Shown here piece after piece: positions 1,699 through 27,720 of a DNA stretch of 64,000 bases. Under the pieces are notes generated by a model, which saw nothing but the letters and a program-made list of their open reading frames with translations, searched no databases and had not been told where the DNA came from. The stretch is from NCBI RefSeq assembly GCF_000224785.1, contig NZ_AGAV01000005.1, positions 124,001-188,000 on the forward strand. Reading direction: 5' to 3'. The stretch is from Lentibacillus jeotgali. Lineage in GTDB: Bacteria; Bacillota; Bacilli; Bacillales; Amphibacillaceae. The number at the start of each line of letters is the position of its first letter. Position 1 is the first letter of the stretch. The position numbers were made by a program, and so were the translations under genes.

Positions 1699-2190
1699 AT
1701 GGCACGCGTTGGGGTCATTATGGGCAGTATCTCGGATTGGGAAACGATGAAACATACATGCAGCACATTGGATGAATTACACATCCCTTACGAAAAAGAA
1801 GTGATCTCGGCACACCGGACACCTGACGATATGTTCACATATGCAAAACAGGCAAGAGAGAAGGGGTTGAACGTCATTATCGCGGGGGCCGGCGGAGCGG
1901 CGCATTTGCCGGGGATGGTTGCAGCACAAACGATACTGCCGGTCATCGGGGTGCCGGTTCAGTCAAAAGCACTGAACGGACTCGATTCTTTGCTTTCAAT
2001 CGTGCAAATGCCCGGCGGTGTACCAACTGCAACGGTGGCAATTGGAAGATCAGGTGCAAAAAATGCCGGTCTTCTGGCTGCCCAGATGATTGGTGCATTC
2101 GACAATGATGTTGCTGATAGATTGAAAGATTATCGCGAAAGCATGAAACAATCAGTGAATGAAATGAGGGATGAGCTTGCAGACCAATAA
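1699..2190 (+). CDS. purE: N5-carboxyaminoimidazole ribonucleotide mutase PurE
   Basis: This 163-residue cytosolic protein is the class I PurE that converts N5-CAIR to CAIR, step 6b of purine synthesis, working with PurK. The family signatures are visible: MGSISDW near residue 9, SAHRTPD near 39-45 and [12 protein letters not shown] near 67-78. Length is usual for the family. The start follows a GAGGGATAGG ribosome site by a few nucleotides. It is the first gene of a twelve-gene operon. It is followed by purK, whose most likely start lies 13 nt beyond this stop. Confidence 0.97.
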
Positions 2191-2203
2191 GGTGACACTG
2201 CCC

Positions 2204-3307
2204 ATGAAAACAATTGGAATTATCGGTGGTGGCCAGCTTGGACGGATGATGGCCATCGCGGCAAAATATATGGGCTATCAGGTGGCGGTTCTCGACCCGA
2301 CATCAAACTGCCCGACCGCACAGGTTGCCGACCAGCAAATTACATCAGCTTATGATGATATGGACGGCATACAGAAACTGACTGATATCAGTGATGTCGT
2401 TACATATGAATTTGAAAATGTTGATCTTGAGGCGGCTGCTTATATTGAACGAACAGGCAAACTACCCCAGGGTACATATGCACTGGACATAGCCCAGAAC
2501 CGTGAAAAAGAAAAATTGATTATGAGTAACGCGGGTTTGCCGATCCCCGCCAATCAGATTGTCAAAGACAGTGAAATGTGTGTAAGCGCTCTTGAAAACA
2601 TGACGCTTCCGGCTGTCATAAAGACAGTCAGCGGGGGATACGATGGCAAAGGTCAGCTAAAGATAAACACGAAGGATGACATTGAAGCGGCATGTGAATT
2701 TTCCGATCAGCATGATGTATGCATTATCGAACAATGGGTGCCTTTTGATAAAGAAATATCCGTTATATTTACACGCGGGCAATCAGGTGAGATTACGTTT
2801 TTCCCGGTTTCCGAAAACGAGCACAAGGATCATATTTTATATAAAACAACTGTACCGGCCTCCATCAGCTCTGTGGTACAGCAAAAAGCACTTGATGCAG
2901 CAGGGAAACTTGCGGAAAAAATGAACATCATCGGAACGTTTGCGATCGAAATGTTCGTCAAAGGTGACAATATTTACCTGAATGAGATGGCGCCAAGGCC
3001 GCACAACTCGGGTCATTATACGATTGAGGCATGCACAATATCACAATTTGCGCAGCACATCCGGGCTATTTGCGGCTTGCCGCTGATGCCAATTGAACTG
3101 CTGCGGCCTGCTGTAATGGTCAATATTCTTGGTGATGATGTGGAAACGGCCTTGAATGTGCTTCCGGATATGCGGCGTGGTTTCCTGCATTTGTATGGCA
3201 AAGAAGCCATTAAACCGAAACGGAAAATGGGGCATATGATCTTTATCGCGGATACATTGGATGAGACAAAACAACAGCTGGCAGTATATGAGGAGGCAAA
3301 GCAATGA
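2204..3307 (+). CDS. purK: N5-carboxyaminoimidazole ribonucleotide synthase PurK
   Basis: An ATP-grasp enzyme of 367 residues that makes N5-CAIR from AIR, bicarbonate and ATP. The N-terminal [12 protein letters not shown] motif binds nucleotide; the ATP-grasp core holds [12 protein letters not shown] (near 140) and the metal-binding [13 protein letters not shown] (near 255). An upstream in-frame ATG at 2171 would overlap purE, but its only Shine-Dalgarno-like sequence is 2 nt away; ATG 2204 has AAGGTGA at 8 nt and gives the family-typical start [10 protein letters not shown]. It overlaps purB by 4 nt, implying translational coupling. Confidence 0.95.
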
Positions 3308-23012: not shown

Positions 23013-23024
23013 GGAGTGGGCGAT

Positions 23025-24239
23025 GTGTTTAAAAAAATAGCGATGATCCTGACAGGCACTGTTCTGATCCTGGCAGGCTGTACACCATCGATCAACAATG
23101 ACGATGAAGTTGTCCAGAACGAAGACAATAACGAACAACAGCAAAATTCAATCGTTTCCAGTCACCAATTGTCGGATGAAGATTATCGGACGATTCTGCC
23201 ATACCGTCCCAGTGCGTCCCGGGGCGTTATCACGAATCAGATGGGGAACCGAGTGGATATTGATGAGATGGAGACCGGGTTAAGAAGGCTGTCAAAAGAT
23301 TATTTTGATCCCGAAAAATACTTTTTTGAAGAAGGCCAGTATTTAACATCTGATATGCTATATAACTGGCTGGATACTTACCCGACGGACGAGCAGCTCA
23401 AGAACCTTGAGGAAAGGGTCCAAAATGAAGACGATCAGTTTAGTGAAGCAGATTTAAATGGACGAAAACAGGCGTTAAATCCGCCGCTGAATGAAGAGAA
23501 TGCCACAAAGGAAGATTATGAGAATAACCCAAAATACCTGACACACATTCTGGAGCAAAATTTTTTGAAGAAGAATGATGATAATACAGTGCAACTCGTC
23601 GGTGCATCACTCGGTATAGCGTTAAAGTCGGTCTATTCCTATGAAGTTGACGGCAATACCTATCATAAAGAAATTCCAAAGGCGGAAATGATGGAAAAAG
23701 GAAAGGAAATCGCCCAGACAGTATTGGAACGTGTCCGAAATATTGATGAAATGAGTAACATTCCCATTATGATTGCCCTATACAAGGAAGAAGCTCAAAG
23801 TTCACCGGTACCCGGCAATTTTGTAGCCAAAACAAGTGTTGATGCCGATCAGGCATCGATAGGCGAATGGGAGACAGTCAATGAAGAAAACGTTCTCTTC
23901 CCATCTGAAGAAGGAGAAGAAAAATACGCCGATACACAGAAGTTAGTACAAAATTTTGGCACGCGCATCGAAGAGTATTTTCCGGATTATGTAGGGGTGA
24001 TCGGTGAAGGTTTTTACATCGATGAAGAACTGCAGCAATTGACGCTTGAAATCCCGCTTGAATTTAACGGAAAAGGAGAAGTTATCGGCTTCACGCAATA
24101 CACGTATGGTCTGGTGGAAGAAATGTTCCAAGATTATTATGACTTGGAAGTAAAAATCAAGTCCAACCAAAAAATGGAGAGCCTTATATACCGAAACGCA
24201 GGTGACGATGAAGCCACTGTCCATGTCTATGATTCCTAA
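23025..24239 (+). CDS. camS: CamS family lipoprotein (sex-pheromone precursor family, YerH)
   Basis: A 404-residue lipoprotein with a short signal peptide and lipobox LILAGC (Cys at about residue 19). The body matches the CamS/YerH family. In staphylococci and enterococci, signal peptides of this family are the source of cAM373-type peptide pheromones; the cellular role of the mature protein is unknown. GTG 23025 has AAGGAGTG about 6 nt upstream; GTG 23016 in frame lies on the RBS itself and is rejected. It is downstream of ligA as in B. subtilis and directly precedes the RRNPP regulator locus. Confidence 0.88.
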   Translation: MFKKIAMILTGTVLILAGCTPSINNDDEVVQNEDNNEQQQNSIVSSHQLSDEDYRTILPYRPSASRGVITNQMGNRVDIDEMETGLRRLSKDYFDPEKYFFEEGQYLTSDMLYNWLDTYPTDEQLKNLEERVQNEDDQFSEADLNGRKQALNPPLNEENATKEDYENNPKYLTHILEQNFLKKNDDNTVQLVGASLGIALKSVYSYEVDGNTYHKEIPKAEMMEKGKEIAQTVLERVRNIDEMSNIPIMIALYKEEAQSSPVPGNFVAKTSVDADQASIGEWETVNEENVLFPSEEGEEKYADTQKLVQNFGTRIEEYFPDYVGVIGEGFYIDEELQQLTLEIPLEFNGKGEVIGFTQYTYGLVEEMFQDYYDLEVKIKSNQKMESLIYRNAGDDEATVHVYDS

Positions 24240-24273
24240 TCAAAAATATGAATAAGTCAATAGACCTAATAAT

Positions 24274-24327
24274 GTCAAGAATAGCCCTTTTCAGAAAGAA
24301 ATATGCGGAAAAAGGGCTATTCTTGAC
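24274..24327. repeat. Perfect 18-bp inverted repeat after camS
   Basis: GTCAAGAATAGCCCTTTT (24274-24291) is exactly complementary to 24310-24327, with an 18-nt loop. There is no T-run after either arm, so it is not a standard intrinsic terminator, though it probably ends or stabilises the camS transcript. It lies in the gap ahead of the regulator gene. Confidence 0.6.
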
Positions 24328-24419
24328 TAACTTTCCTCATTTCAGGAAAGTATGCAAGTTGTGGAGGGGTTTATTAGTATATTTACCCTTCAACTTTCCC
24401 AATATGAATTTTTGGAATT

Positions 24420-24439
24420 TATGTTATGATATAAACATA
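24420..24439. promoter_or_regulatory. Candidate operator overlapping the promoter of the RRNPP regulator
   Basis: TATGTT (24420-24425) and AACATA (24434-24439) form a perfect inverted repeat with an 8-bp spacer. It overlaps a -10-like TATGAT (24425-24430) and lies about 50 bp before the regulator start. The half-site resembles the TATG/CATA ends of PlcR boxes. A role as autoregulatory site is an inference. Confidence 0.4.
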
Positions 24440-24489
24440 GAATTATTACAAAGTTATTTTAAATTTCAGCTAGTGAGGTGGGTAAAAAG

Positions 24490-25758
24490 ATGGAAATCGG
24501 AGCCTATATCAAACTGCACCGAATCAAACAGGAAATGACCCAAGCTGAGCTGGCTGAAGGAATTGTCTCAAGCGCTTATTTATCAAAGATTGAAAACGAA
24601 AAAACTGATGCAAGCCTAAATGTGATTAGCTTATTATGCACCAGGCTGGGGATTCAGCTAGATAACGGATCTGATGAAGAGGTAAGAGAGAAACTGCAAA
24701 AATGGTATGGCATGTTATCATCTGATTATGATATGAACGAAATGGTTCAAAACTATCAAGAATTGAACAAGGTTATGTATGACAACCATTCAGCTGACAG
24801 TCTAGTCATGTTTGAGATTCATAAAGTACGCTATTTCCTGGTAATAGGTAAAATTGATGAGGCTCTGAGACAGGTTAATAAATTAACTGAAATGTCCGAT
24901 ACGTTTGACACTCTGCATCAATTCTACTGGTATAAATTCAAGGGAAACTACAGCACAGCCCAGAATGAATTTAATCAGGCAATGCGCATGTATGAAGCTG
25001 CAGAAGAAAAGTTGAATCAGCTGGAATTGCCAGAAGAAGAAGTTGCAGATTTGCAGTACACGATTGCGGTTACACATAGTAAGCTGCGGAATACCCTCGA
25101 AGCGATAGATTATGCCGAGAAGGCAATTGCAACTTTTCGGGTTACATACAACTTTAGCCGATGCGCACAATGCCATGTTGTATTGGGGATCTCATACCGT
25201 AGAATAAGGATGTATGATAAAGCAATCAAAAACTACAATTTGGCCAAACATTTGGGTGAATTGAAGCAAAACCCACAAATTATCCAATTGACGAACCAAA
25301 ATTTAGGTTATCTTTACTCGACGGTGGGAGAAACGGAAAAAGCTATCTATCATTATGAAGAGATAATTAAAGAACAAGAATTATTCTTATTTGAACGTAT
25401 ACTTGCAGCGACTTCATTAATTAAGGAATATTATAATATTAATAATTTTGATAAAGCCAAGGAAATGGTTAAAATGAGTCTAAAATTATTACATGAGCCA
25501 GAGGATCAAGACACGTTTCAATTATTTTTCTACATTGCCTATACTTACAAATATGCGATCAATCAGGAAGCTTCAAAGTTTGAGTCATTGGTGATTGACG
25601 AATTTATACCATATTTGAAAAAACATAAAGATTATGCTAATTTGGTTATTTATGCCAATATGCTTGCACACCATTTTGAAGGGAATAACAGATATAAAGA
25701 ATCTGTTAAATACTATAAGCTGGCTAATAGTACTTATGAAGAACTAATTAGCCTGTAA
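24490..25758 (+). CDS. RRNPP-family peptide-sensing regulator (XRE HTH plus TPR repeats)
   Basis: This 422-residue protein has an N-terminal XRE-type helix-turn-helix at about residues 5-58 (TQAELAEGIVSSAYLSKIENEK). The rest is all-helical with TPR-like repeats, for example EALRQVNKLTEM, EAIDYAEKAIATF, KAIKNYNLAKHLG and KAIYHYEEIIKEQ. Size and plan match NprR, PlcR and similar regulators that bind imported peptides. GAGGTGG (24475-24481) sets ATG 24490. A 46-residue secreted-peptide gene follows 14 bp downstream, the usual arrangement for a receptor and its signal. Base use is somewhat more AT-rich than in the flanking core genes. B. subtilis has other genes here. No closer identification is possible by eye. 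Confidence 0.85.
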   Translation: MEIGAYIKLHRIKQEMTQAELAEGIVSSAYLSKIENEKTDASLNVISLLCTRLGIQLDNGSDEEVREKLQKWYGMLSSDYDMNEMVQNYQELNKVMYDNHSADSLVMFEIHKVRYFLVIGKIDEALRQVNKLTEMSDTFDTLHQFYWYKFKGNYSTAQNEFNQAMRMYEAAEEKLNQLELPEEEVADLQYTIAVTHSKLRNTLEAIDYAEKAIATFRVTYNFSRCAQCHVVLGISYRRIRMYDKAIKNYNLAKHLGELKQNPQIIQLTNQNLGYLYSTVGETEKAIYHYEEIIKEQELFLFERILAATSLIKEYYNINNFDKAKEMVKMSLKLLHEPEDQDTFQLFFYIAYTYKYAINQEASKFESLVIDEFIPYLKKHKDYANLVIYANMLAHHFEGNNRYKESVKYYKLANSTYEELISL

Positions 25759-25772
25759 AGGGGGGGGATATC

Positions 25773-25913
25773 ATGAAAAAGCTAATAGCAACTGTAGCCT
25801 TTGGAACAATGCTTATTGGAGGAATTGCTGCTATGCAAGATGCACCAAATGAGTCTGCAATGGAATGGGAACCAACTGTTTTTTCAGTTAGCAATGATGT
25901 CAGCCACTTTTAA
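25773..25913 (+). CDS. Small secreted peptide precursor (PapR/NprX/Phr-like signal)
   Basis: A 46-residue frame with a strong ribosome site (AAAGGGGGGG, ~5 nt before ATG). Residues 1-20 form a signal peptide (two Lys, then hydrophobic to GGIAA); an acidic middle follows, and the C-terminus is FSVSNDVSHF. Size and plan equal PapR (48 aa) and NprX-type precursors, whose last 5-8 residues become the signal after export and cleavage. The active peptide here would be taken from the C-terminal end, for example SNDVSHF, which is an inference. It shares a transcript with the regulator and ends before a clear terminator. I do not recognise the peptide sequence itself. Confidence 0.75.
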   Translation: MKKLIATVAFGTMLIGGIAAMQDAPNESAMEWEPTVFSVSNDVSHF

Positions 25914-25961
25914 TCTATAAAGAACATTAATCTTTACCCTATTACAATATGATGTTATTTG

Positions 25962-25997
25962 CCTGAAACGGTGTGGAAAGCTGTTTCAGGTTTTTTG
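25962..25997 (+). terminator. Rho-independent terminator after the peptide gene
   Basis: CCTGAAAC (25962-25969) pairs with GTTTCAGG (25983-25990), followed by TTTTTTGT. It closes the regulator-peptide transcript. Confidence 0.85.
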
Positions 25998-26036
25998 TGT
26001 AATTTCAGGCCGGAAACATGCTTCTGTAAATTATGA

Positions 26037-26064
26037 TTTCAATGGGTGAAACATATGGTATAAT
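26037..26064 (+). promoter_or_regulatory. Promoter of the symporter operon
   Basis: An extended -10 TGGTATAAT (TATAAT at 26059-26064) with a weak -35 TTTCAA (26037-26042, 16-bp spacer) stands about 28 bp before the small accessory gene. B. subtilis opuE also has a stress (sigma-B) promoter; I see no clear sigma-B match here. Confidence 0.6.
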
Positions 26065-26091
26065 AAGACTATTCAGAAAGGGGGGTTAATA

Positions 26092-26199
26092 ATGGAGTAT
26101 GCCATTTCCGGGGCAACATGGATGTGGATGTTTATCCCAATGCCTGTTGTGGTATTGCTTTCAATTATTACATTGTTTACAGAGGGGAGGAATAAATAA
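26092..26199 (+). CDS. Symporter small accessory protein (35 aa)
   Basis: A 35-residue single-span membrane peptide (core WMWMFIPMPVVVLLSIITLF) with AAGGGGGGTT ribosome site. Its stop codon directly abuts the ATG of the sodium/proline symporter, and an AGGGGAGG site for that gene lies inside its 3' end, so the two are translationally coupled. Small peptides of this kind are known beside sodium:solute symporters and are thought to be subunits; the exact role is not established. Confidence 0.75.
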   Translation: MEYAISGATWMWMFIPMPVVVLLSIITLFTEGRNK

Positions 26200-27720
26200 A
26201 TGGGGCAGGCAACACTGATAGCGTTTATTGTCTATCTTATTGGGATACTTGTAATCGGTATCATCATGTACCGGATGACAAACAATCTGTCCGACTATGT
26301 TCTGGGCGGCCGTAAATTAGGCCCTGGGGTTGCCGCCCTAAGTGCAGGCGCATCTGATATGAGCGGATGGCTCTTATTGGGACTGCCGGGCGCTGTTTAT
26401 GCTGCAGGTCTTGCTGAAGCGTGGATGGCAATTGGTTTGTCGATTGGCGCTTATTTGAACTGGCAATTTGTGGCTAAGCGTTTGCGCATTTATACGGAGG
26501 TTTCGAATAATTCCATTACGGTTCCGGATTTTTTGGAAAACCGTTTTAAAGATAACTCGCACATTCTTCGGGTTATTTCTGCACTCGTTATATTATTGTT
26601 TTTTACATTTTATACATCATCCGGAATGGTAGCTGGCGCTAAACTGTTTGAGGCATCATTTGGACTGGATTATCAGGCGGCCTTATGGATCGGAACCATT
26701 GTTGTCGTGTCGTATACCTTATTGGGCGGCTTCCTGGCAGTTGCCTGGACCGACTTCGTTCAGGGCAGTTTGATGTTTCTGGCATTAATTGTCGTCCCGA
26801 TTGTAGCGATTAACGAGATGGGCGGCTGGAATACTGCTGTCCAGGCTGTCGGGGACATCAGTTCGACTCATTTAAATATGGTCGAAGGGGTCAGTATAAT
26901 TGCCATTATTTCATCCCTGGCCTGGGGAGTTGGTTACTTTGGACAGCCGCACATTATCGTCCGCTTTATGGCGTTAAGATCACCAAAAGATGTTCCGATG
27001 GCCCGTTTTATCGGTACAACGTGGATGGTCCTTGGCTTATACGGTGCGATATTTACAGGCTTTGTGGGGCTGGCATTCATCAGTACACAGGAAGTGAGTG
27101 TTCTGGGTGAGTTCGGTATTTCGGTCATAACAGAAAATGGTATCCAGATGCTTGAAGATCCGGAAAAGATTTTTATTGCCTTTTCGCAATTGTTATTCCA
27201 TCCGGTAATTGCCGGAATTCTGCTGGCTGCAATTCTGTCAGCGATCATGAGTACAATTGACTCACAGTTGCTTGTTTCCTCATCGGCAGTGGCGGAAGAC
27301 TTTTATAAAGCCATTTTCAAGAAAGAAGCAGGTGATAAGGAACTTGTATGGGTTGGCCGTATAGCTACCCTGATCATTGCCTTGATTGCCGCGCTTATTG
27401 CCATGAATCCTGAAAGTACCGTACTTGAACTGGTCAGCTATGCCTGGGCAGGATTTGGCGCTGCATTCGGTCCGACTATTTTACTGGCCTTATTCTGGAA
27501 AGGGTTCACCCGCAATGGCGCGTTTGCCGGAATTCTGGCCGGTGCTGTTACAGTTATTGTCTGGGGCGGCTTCCTGTCAGGCGGCATTTTTGACCTGTAT
27601 GAAATTGTTCCCGGCTTCCTGCTTAACCTGGTTCTAGCTATTGTTGTGAGTAAGTCAGGGAAACCTGAGGAAGGCGTTGAAGCTGAATACGAGGAAACCA
27701 TGTCAAAATTAAATGTGTAA
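26200..27720 (+). CDS. putP: Sodium/proline symporter (PutP/OpuE)
   Basis: A 506-residue sodium:solute symporter with 13 predicted membrane spans. Family motifs are SAGASDMSGWLLLGLPGA near 49-66 (substrate and sodium site), the GWFVAKRLR-like NWQFVAKRLR near 87 and SAIMSTIDSQLL near 344. The position after camS and before gatC equals that of B. subtilis opuE, the osmostress proline uptake system, so a role in osmoprotection or proline use is likely. PutP and OpuE cannot be told apart by eye. A terminator follows. Confidence 0.92.
   Translation: MGQATLIAFIVYLIGILVIGIIMYRMTNNLSDYVLGGRKLGPGVAALSAGASDMSGWLLLGLPGAVYAAGLAEAWMAIGLSIGAYLNWQFVAKRLRIYTEVSNNSITVPDFLENRFKDNSHILRVISALVILLFFTFYTSSGMVAGAKLFEASFGLDYQAALWIGTIVVVSYTLLGGFLAVAWTDFVQGSLMFLALIVVPIVAINEMGGWNTAVQAVGDISSTHLNMVEGVSIIAIISSLAWGVGYFGQPHIIVRFMALRSPKDVPMARFIGTTWMVLGLYGAIFTGFVGLAFISTQEVSVLGEFGISVITENGIQMLEDPEKIFIAFSQLLFHPVIAGILLAAILSAIMSTIDSQLLVSSSAVAEDFYKAIFKKEAGDKELVWVGRIATLIIALIAALIAMNPESTVLELVSYAWAGFGAAFGPTILLALFWKGFTRNGAFAGILAGAVTVIVWGGFLSGGIFDLYEIVPGFLLNLVLAIVVSKSGKPEEGVEAEYEETMSKLNV

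Follow-up and report, generated by a model that had tools for sequence, protein, structure and literature searches.

An NprR-like receptor–precursor pair beside camS in Lentibacillus jeotgali and related genomes, with a predicted pheromone core inside the precursor

In Lentibacillus jeotgali, a gene for an HTH–TPR regulator is directly followed by a very short gene. Do the two genes form a peptide quorum-sensing pair, what known system do they resemble, and which part of the short product is the signal? We analyzed a window of 64,000 nucleotides containing both genes (NZ_AGAV01000005.1, positions 124,001 to 188,000). A preliminary description, made from the sequence alone, had proposed an RRNPP receptor with its peptide precursor. 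Re-reading of the sequence confirmed its coordinates, its gene lengths and the 14-bp gap between the receptor gene and the 46-codon small gene (Table 1), as well as a strong ribosome site, AAAGGGGGGGATATC, 5′ of the ATG at 25773. The pair had been placed between camS and a proline symporter gene, and CamS (PF07537) and the sodium/proline symporter PutP were both found as neighbors, together with GatC and GatA. The upstream neighbor CamS (23016-24239) is worded in Pfam as sex pheromone cAM373 precursor; thus, a second peptide-signal-related gene adjoins the pair. A 35-codon membrane-type ORF (26092-26199) is located directly 5′ of putP. It had no Pfam match up to E = 0.01, lies downstream of the pair in the same 44 of the 100 loci analyzed below as putP, and perhaps encodes a small symporter partner.

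Table 1. Features of the receptor–precursor locus in window coordinates.
Feature	Position	Strand	Basis or remark
Upstream half of the operator, perfect inverted repeat ACTTTCCT-N6-AGGAAAGT	24330..24351	.	Conserved in near relatives, variant in others
Promoter-proximal operator element ACTTTCCCAATATG...GGAATTT	24393..24420	+	No second copy in the genome when up to 3 mismatches are allowed
-10 hexamer TATGAT, 30 nt after the start of TTTCCC	24425..24430	+	Spacing conserved in relatives
Receptor, 422 aa: HTH (residues 7-58) and nine TPR-like helical hairpins (residues 59-421)	24490..25758	+	Pfam, PDB, predicted fold
Signal-peptide precursor gene, 46 aa, Sec-type leader (residues 1 to ~22)	25773..25913	+	Relatives, controls, weak PhrK-family match
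Predicted mature pheromone core EWEPTVF (residues 31-37)	25863..25883	+	Conservation, tandem arrays, covariation
Variable C-terminal tail SVSNDVSHF, predicted to be trimmed off	25884..25910	+	Not conserved, no significant covariation
Highly conserved 3′ untranslated element TTTACCCTATTACAATATGAT	25933..25953	+	59 of 95 loci; single copy in the genome
Predicted intrinsic terminator of the receptor–peptide operon	25961..25991	+	Similar hairpins there in many orthologues

Pfam analysis of the receptor gave HTH_3 (E = 4.7e-9) and TPR (best E = 6.5e-13), and the AimR model PF22871 was not among the 17 families listed up to E = 1. The best PDB sequence match was NprR (4gpk, E = 1.9e-12), followed by Rap proteins. 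The 3D structure was modeled using AlphaFold2 with 25 sequences (mean pLDDT 90.2, pTM 0.76). The model had nine helical hairpins after the HTH, and Foldseek returned apo NprR first (5dbk, E = 4e-11) and then RapI, RapF, and RapJ. The structure prediction bore out the TPR fold expected of the regulator. The reading as an RRNPP receptor with a secreted propeptide also stood, given the Pfam, PDB and fold matches and the adjoining small gene with a Sec leader, which together with the TPR receptor makes the RRNPP(A) layout. The layout had been likened to both PlcR–PapR and NprR–NprX. The NprR likeness held, as the receptor has the N-terminal HTH and nine-TPR architecture of NprR. The PlcR likeness did not go beyond an HTH–TPR activator with a downstream propeptide: PlcR–PapR belongs to a five-TPR clan (PMC12700828, available extract) with a C-terminal pheromone, whereas nine hairpins and an internal signal were found here. 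Rap–Phr systems share the TPR fold and the small secreted precursor downstream, but Rap proteins have no HTH domain, unlike this receptor.

The relationship to NprR was also examined by sequence identity and by a tree. The receptor was 19.5% identical to NprR over 344 residues, and it neither reached at least 30% identity, the value used in the available part of PMC10075063, nor grouped with Bacillus thuringiensis NprR. In a tree of 41 TPR regions, 27 family members (of 100) formed one clade (98/97), and the nearest outgroup was a Priestia koreensis plasmid receptor (97/90). B. thuringiensis NprR paired with a Rap protein on long branches, a placement that is unsure, and did not stand beside the family clade.

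Receptor orthologues (E ≤ 1e-70) were found in 99 of 159 family genomes, representing 25 of 46 genera and 113 places; the 100 loci analyzed are regions covering 101 of these places. The receptors of L. kapialis and L. halodurans were 83% and 80% identical to that of the window. camS was upstream on the same strand in 88 of the 100 loci, and gatC was also downstream in 84. The remaining 12 loci without the camS arrangement were all from one genus (g19), where most genomes are multi-copy. A gene for L-glutamate-gamma-semialdehyde (P5C) dehydrogenase was located between camS and the receptor gene in 43 loci. Because camS and gatC flank it in 84 of 100 loci, the pair is not a foreign island at this place. 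One genome of the same genus (G005) had camS, the 35-codon ORF, putP, and gatC, with the pair absent. The locus was indeed more AT-rich than its surroundings, as first described (GC 0.37 and 0.35 in 24001-26000, versus 0.43 and 0.45 in the flanking kilobases). Receptor GC was lower than camS GC in 83 of 84 loci family-wide; therefore, the AT-richness is no sign of recent transfer, and that explanation was rejected. A search for a mobile origin of the family gave no match in phages. Viral contigs gave one weak, HTH-only match to the receptor, and the 19 plasmid records that matched it were all below 60% identity. Of five related plasmids, four have 'hypothetical protein' as the annotation of the downstream ORF, and one lists no such ORF.

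The small gene was searched for with an ORF caller that demands a basic-hydrophobic leader and scores ribosome sites. Beside the receptor, it accepted a small leader-bearing ORF in 95 of 100 loci; the distance from the receptor stop was between -32 and +29 nt (median 14). Because shuffled regions (38 of 1000) and camS stops (5 of 88) were rarely accepted, the small ORF is not a chance finding, and the same gene pair does recur in related genomes, as had been anticipated. We regard the pair as an NprR-like and inherited RRNPP quorum-sensing system. Among the 100 loci, the small gene was absent beside the receptor in L139, L150, L153, and L154, and L128 had a truncated one; the four receptors without a recognizable precursor are possible listeners to other systems. 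Five genomes of one genus (G166, G167, G168, G169, and G172) had three to five receptor genes each, many of them away from camS and with diverged precursors, such as RPPSPT and LQPNPT. The more distant receptors L026, L027, and L028 were accompanied by HPDP/HPPP-type precursors, and that of L026 contained tandem ESHPDPQ units.

Which part of the precursor is the signal was addressed by comparing the 95 precursors. The preliminary description had placed the signal within the last 5-8 residues (SNDVSHF). That would agree with most RRNPP propeptides, in which the signal is C-terminal (PMC9765709, available extract), and with the tail that single-copy precursors retain after the first core (6-16 residues, median 9, in 72 single-copy precursors). 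However, the conserved part was internal. The leader, whose extent was judged by eye, had a weak PhrK-family match (17.8 bits versus a cut-off of 35). Behind it, a heptamer core was conserved, the pheromone commonly having the form xEP[ST][IV][FL]. A core could be assigned by pattern in 86 of the 95 precursors; the nine others, all from genus g19 (L129, L132, L134-L136, L140-L142, and L152), were left out. Mean pairwise identity among the 72 single-copy precursors was 0.49 for the leader (residues 1-20) and 0.47 for the core, but 0.18 for the last six residues. The conservation of C-terminal residues that a C-terminal signal was expected to show was not found.

Tandem arrays pointed in the same direction. 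Fourteen precursors of more than 60 residues were arrays, and 69 of their 70 core copies were identical within their own array, while the linkers varied in 10 of the 14. Copies were located by the central tripeptide, so copies altered there would be missed, and L145, whose repeat is shorter and less distinct, was left out of the count. In three arrays (L118, L144, and L146) the last core copy was the protein end, and no tail was present at all. A signal in the last residues is thus very improbable, also in view of the covariation results below. The C-terminal assignment is very probably wrong and the signal probably lies inside the precursor, to judge from these comparisons; the true signal is perhaps 5-7 residues long and ends at F37. 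Literature searches with the core peptides EWEPTVF, DAEPSIF, AEPSIF, and EPSIFS, and on NprR quorum sensing in Oceanobacillus, found no relevant paper.

Covariation between precursor and receptor was analyzed at contact positions fixed beforehand from PMC4970707 (available extract), namely NprR R126, Y165, W167, H201, N306, D309, and R343. Relatedness was controlled for by using 42 disjoint closest pairs; the tests of the tail and the last six residues used at most 35 single-copy pairs and had less power. There were 31 pair tests in all, with uncorrected p-values. For the six-residue core, the contact columns as a set outranked the other TPR columns (Mann-Whitney p = 0.0009, 42 pairs). By core position, the contact-set p was 0.0025 at P-1, 0.0073 at P-2, and 0.0076 at P+3, and P+1 (0.11), P+2 (0.07), and P-3 (0.66) were not significant alone in the 42 pairs. 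A search for covarying peptide tails in relatives had been suggested; instead, the core covaried and the tail did not significantly do so with the receptor contacts. In at most 35 pairs, nine tail positions gave p-values of 0.056-0.85, with the lowest at the first tail residue, and the last six residues gave 0.43-0.97. Seven leader positions used as controls gave 0.04-0.80, one of the seven reaching 0.04.

Individual columns were also ranked in the 42 pairs. For changes at P-2, the top of 322 receptor columns was 305 (NprR D309), with T278 scoring nearly the same. For changes at P-1, column 198 tied first with H143, and column 161 (W167) was sixth. In a mutual-information scan without relatedness control, contact column 305 ranked first only for P-2, and non-contact columns were first elsewhere (R200 for P-1, Y80 for P+1, and T195 for P+2). 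Column 198 aligns with NprR H201, which stacks on a lysine of NprX (PMC4970707, available extract). Unlike in NprR–NprX, this position is K in 81 of 100 receptors, and the pheromone residue aligned with the NprX lysine is E in 64 of 86 cores. K198 was present in all 64 systems with E before P in the pheromone and in 13 of the 22 others (Fisher p = 1.1e-6, ignoring relatedness). The pheromone E and receptor K198 are put forward as a candidate specificity contact. The peptide is predicted to bind the receptor and change its activity, a point on which the core–contact covariation bears only indirectly.

NprR residues with known roles in tetramer formation, dimer formation, and Spo0F binding were taken from PMC4970707 (available extract) and compared in the alignment of 100 receptors. 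As in NprR, the tetramer residues Y223 and F225 were kept (100 and 97 of 100), and Asn275 was invariant, as was W79. The dimer residue Y410 was kept in 97. The position of N407 was V in 49 receptors, including that of the window, and N was not among its six commonest residues. NprR itself has a second function (PMC4970707), and the receptor could mainly inhibit the sporulation phosphorelay by binding Spo0F, with the peptide relieving inhibition and DNA binding being secondary. The fold is nearly as close to Rap proteins, and two residues that also serve this mode, W79 and Y223, are conserved. However, of the Spo0F-binding residues only Y223 was general: D107 and Y118 were found in 0 of 100 and E188 in 4 of 100, so three of four were lost, while the HTH and a widespread operator were kept. 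We consider this alternative quite unlikely. Because the tetramer and dimer residues are mostly kept and three Spo0F-binding residues are lost, a transcription factor is expected rather than a Rap-like sporulation inhibitor.

A two-part operator was found upstream of the receptor gene. TTTCCCAAT occurred near the receptor start in 88 of 100 loci, and 72 of these also had an AGGAAA box at 44-59 nt. In the 72 promoters with both, the distance from AGGAAA to TTTCCC was 51 in 57, 50 in 14, and 53 in 1. A TATAAT-like -10 hexamer (5-6 of 6 positions) was located at +30 from TTTCCC in 76 of 88 promoters and at +31 in 9. As the operator overlaps the promoter region, the receptor might repress its own operon, with the pheromone relieving the repression. 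This is unlikely, since the TTTCCCAAT box at the -35 place and the fixed 30-31 nt to the -10 hexamer in 85 of 88 promoters make an activator-dependent layout, and NprR–NprX is an activator (PMC4970707, available extract).

The inverted repeat at 24330-24351 is the sole perfect copy in the window's genome. It was perfect at the receptor in 10 of 12 genomes of the genus, one of which had one further perfect copy, and in another genus 10 of 11 genomes had a single perfect copy, located at the receptor. Other genera had ATTTTCCT-N5-AGGAAAAT, doubled arms, or one arm only; the spacer differs between genera, being either 6 or 5 nt, an uncommon feature in a site for a fixed dimer. With up to 2 mismatches, the palindrome matched 22 places in the window's genome versus 18 for the reversed control, so as a regulon signal it is near chance; the six of 21 non-receptor places that were inspected were all inside reading frames. 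The single box AACTTTCCCAATATG had 17 two-mismatch matches in that genome. In a scan of the window's genome for the operator, only the receptor promoter qualified clearly, which suggests that the operon is probably self-activating.

Operator-like sites elsewhere were searched for in relatives. Five genomes of the genus had six extra palindrome places. Three of them look like terminators beside thiamin-type genes, L224 has a terminator-like form inside a frame, and L223 and L227 are intergenic. L227, traced to a subtilase gene, was dropped: it had no -10 hexamer at the right distance, and the site had 3 mismatches in a second species and no counterpart in the window's genome. A paired-site scan of 60 family genomes gave matches in 33, mostly at the receptor promoter. 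There were 16 non-receptor places and 16 matches of the reversed-pattern control; therefore, matches as such mean little, and only spacing and extended matches set the candidates apart. Four non-receptor places share the receptor's spacing, and three of them have a -10 hexamer at +31. The exception is L284, a strong site (score 24.4) upstream of a predicted secreted protein with an ambiguous start. The weaker sites L286 and L287 (16.3 and 15.9) come from two species of a single genus and precede the same secreted-lipase gene at an identical position. As a control, 1.37 Mb of reversed sequence, far less than the genomes scanned, scored no higher than 6.0.

The fourth place, L285 in genome G165, is likewise strong, had the highest site score of these (31.6) and precedes a gene for an HTH-AimR protein (PF22871, E about 1e-60). 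Its operator is a perfect palindrome with the TTTCCCAAT box 51 bp downstream. The AimR gene is followed by a small propeptide-like gene ending in DPGGGIGN (about 1740-3300, G165:C55), and the contig also carries ArdC, LPD1, DnaA_N, and topoisomerase genes, which are plasmid-type and mobile-element-like. The same genome carries a chromosomal receptor–peptide pair. From the site, it is conceivable, although we lean against it, that a mobile element has its arbitrium (AimR) gene under the direct activating control of the host's chromosomal quorum-sensing receptor. If the site is real, host and mobile-element communication would be linked, and the element's decision circuit would be wired to the population signal of its host.

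The pair, its conservation, the leader, the repeated core, the operator and the covariation can be seen in the sequence; from them we infer processing and import of the peptide, an activating and not a repressing receptor, and its targets in the window's genome. The likely scheme is an NprR-like RRNPP operon in which the precursor would be exported by Sec and trimmed at both ends outside the cell, giving the pheromone that ends at F37. This would be re-imported by the oligopeptide permease and bound in the TPR groove. The bound receptor, a dimer of dimers, would occupy the two-part operator, with the AGGAAAGT box 51 bp upstream of the TTTCCCAAT box that takes the place of the -35 element, and would activate its own operon and a small number of other genes. 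For NprR–NprX, the active form is a tetramer, and its binding to two DNA sites has been suggested (PMC4970707, available extract).

Like NprR–NprX of the Bacillus cereus group, the pair combines an HTH and nine-TPR receptor with a small secreted precursor and a short proline-containing pheromone, which is SKPDIVG there (PMC5641580, available extract). Tandem pheromone copies are also described for NprR propeptides, in 17 of 17 atypically large ones (PMC9765709, available extract). Unlike in NprR–NprX, the core is internal and the tail disposable, and the family has a fixed place between camS and gatC. The outgroup pair on the Priestia koreensis FS-1 plasmid (NZ_CP061869) is NprR-like, with 32% identity and EKEPGPL in its propeptide; it differs in being plasmid-borne and outside the family clade. 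Two plasmid NprR–NprX systems are reported in this strain in the available part of PMC10075063, and the pair matched here is presumably among them. Virgibacillus is among the genera listed with NprR in the available part of PMC9765709. In view of these reports, the family may already be counted, unexamined, within the broad NprR group of those papers. It is a real clade of NprR-like quorum sensing, undescribed in the searches made. The initial observation was correct and its interpretation right in kind, but wrong on the signal position. The 86 assigned cores among 95 precursors, with one receptor family and mostly one chromosomal place, make a large natural series, in which single-copy precursors occur alongside tandem ones and which offers a candidate specificity contact and a defined operator. 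It allows tests of the joint change of signal and receptor and of the excision of internal or repeated pheromones, the latter called an open question in PMC9765709 (available extract).

Rfam analysis of 24200-26200 gave six matches, all far below the gathering score. Pairing of the 3′ element (TTTTTACCC) with the receptor ribosome site (GGGTAAAAA) was rejected, as the complementarity was present in some Lentibacillus and lost in genera with an unchanged 3′ element. The G-poor 3′ element, TTTTTTACCCTATTACTATATGAT, is located directly 5′ of the terminator and is kept near letter-for-letter across genera. It is possibly a 3′-end-derived small RNA.
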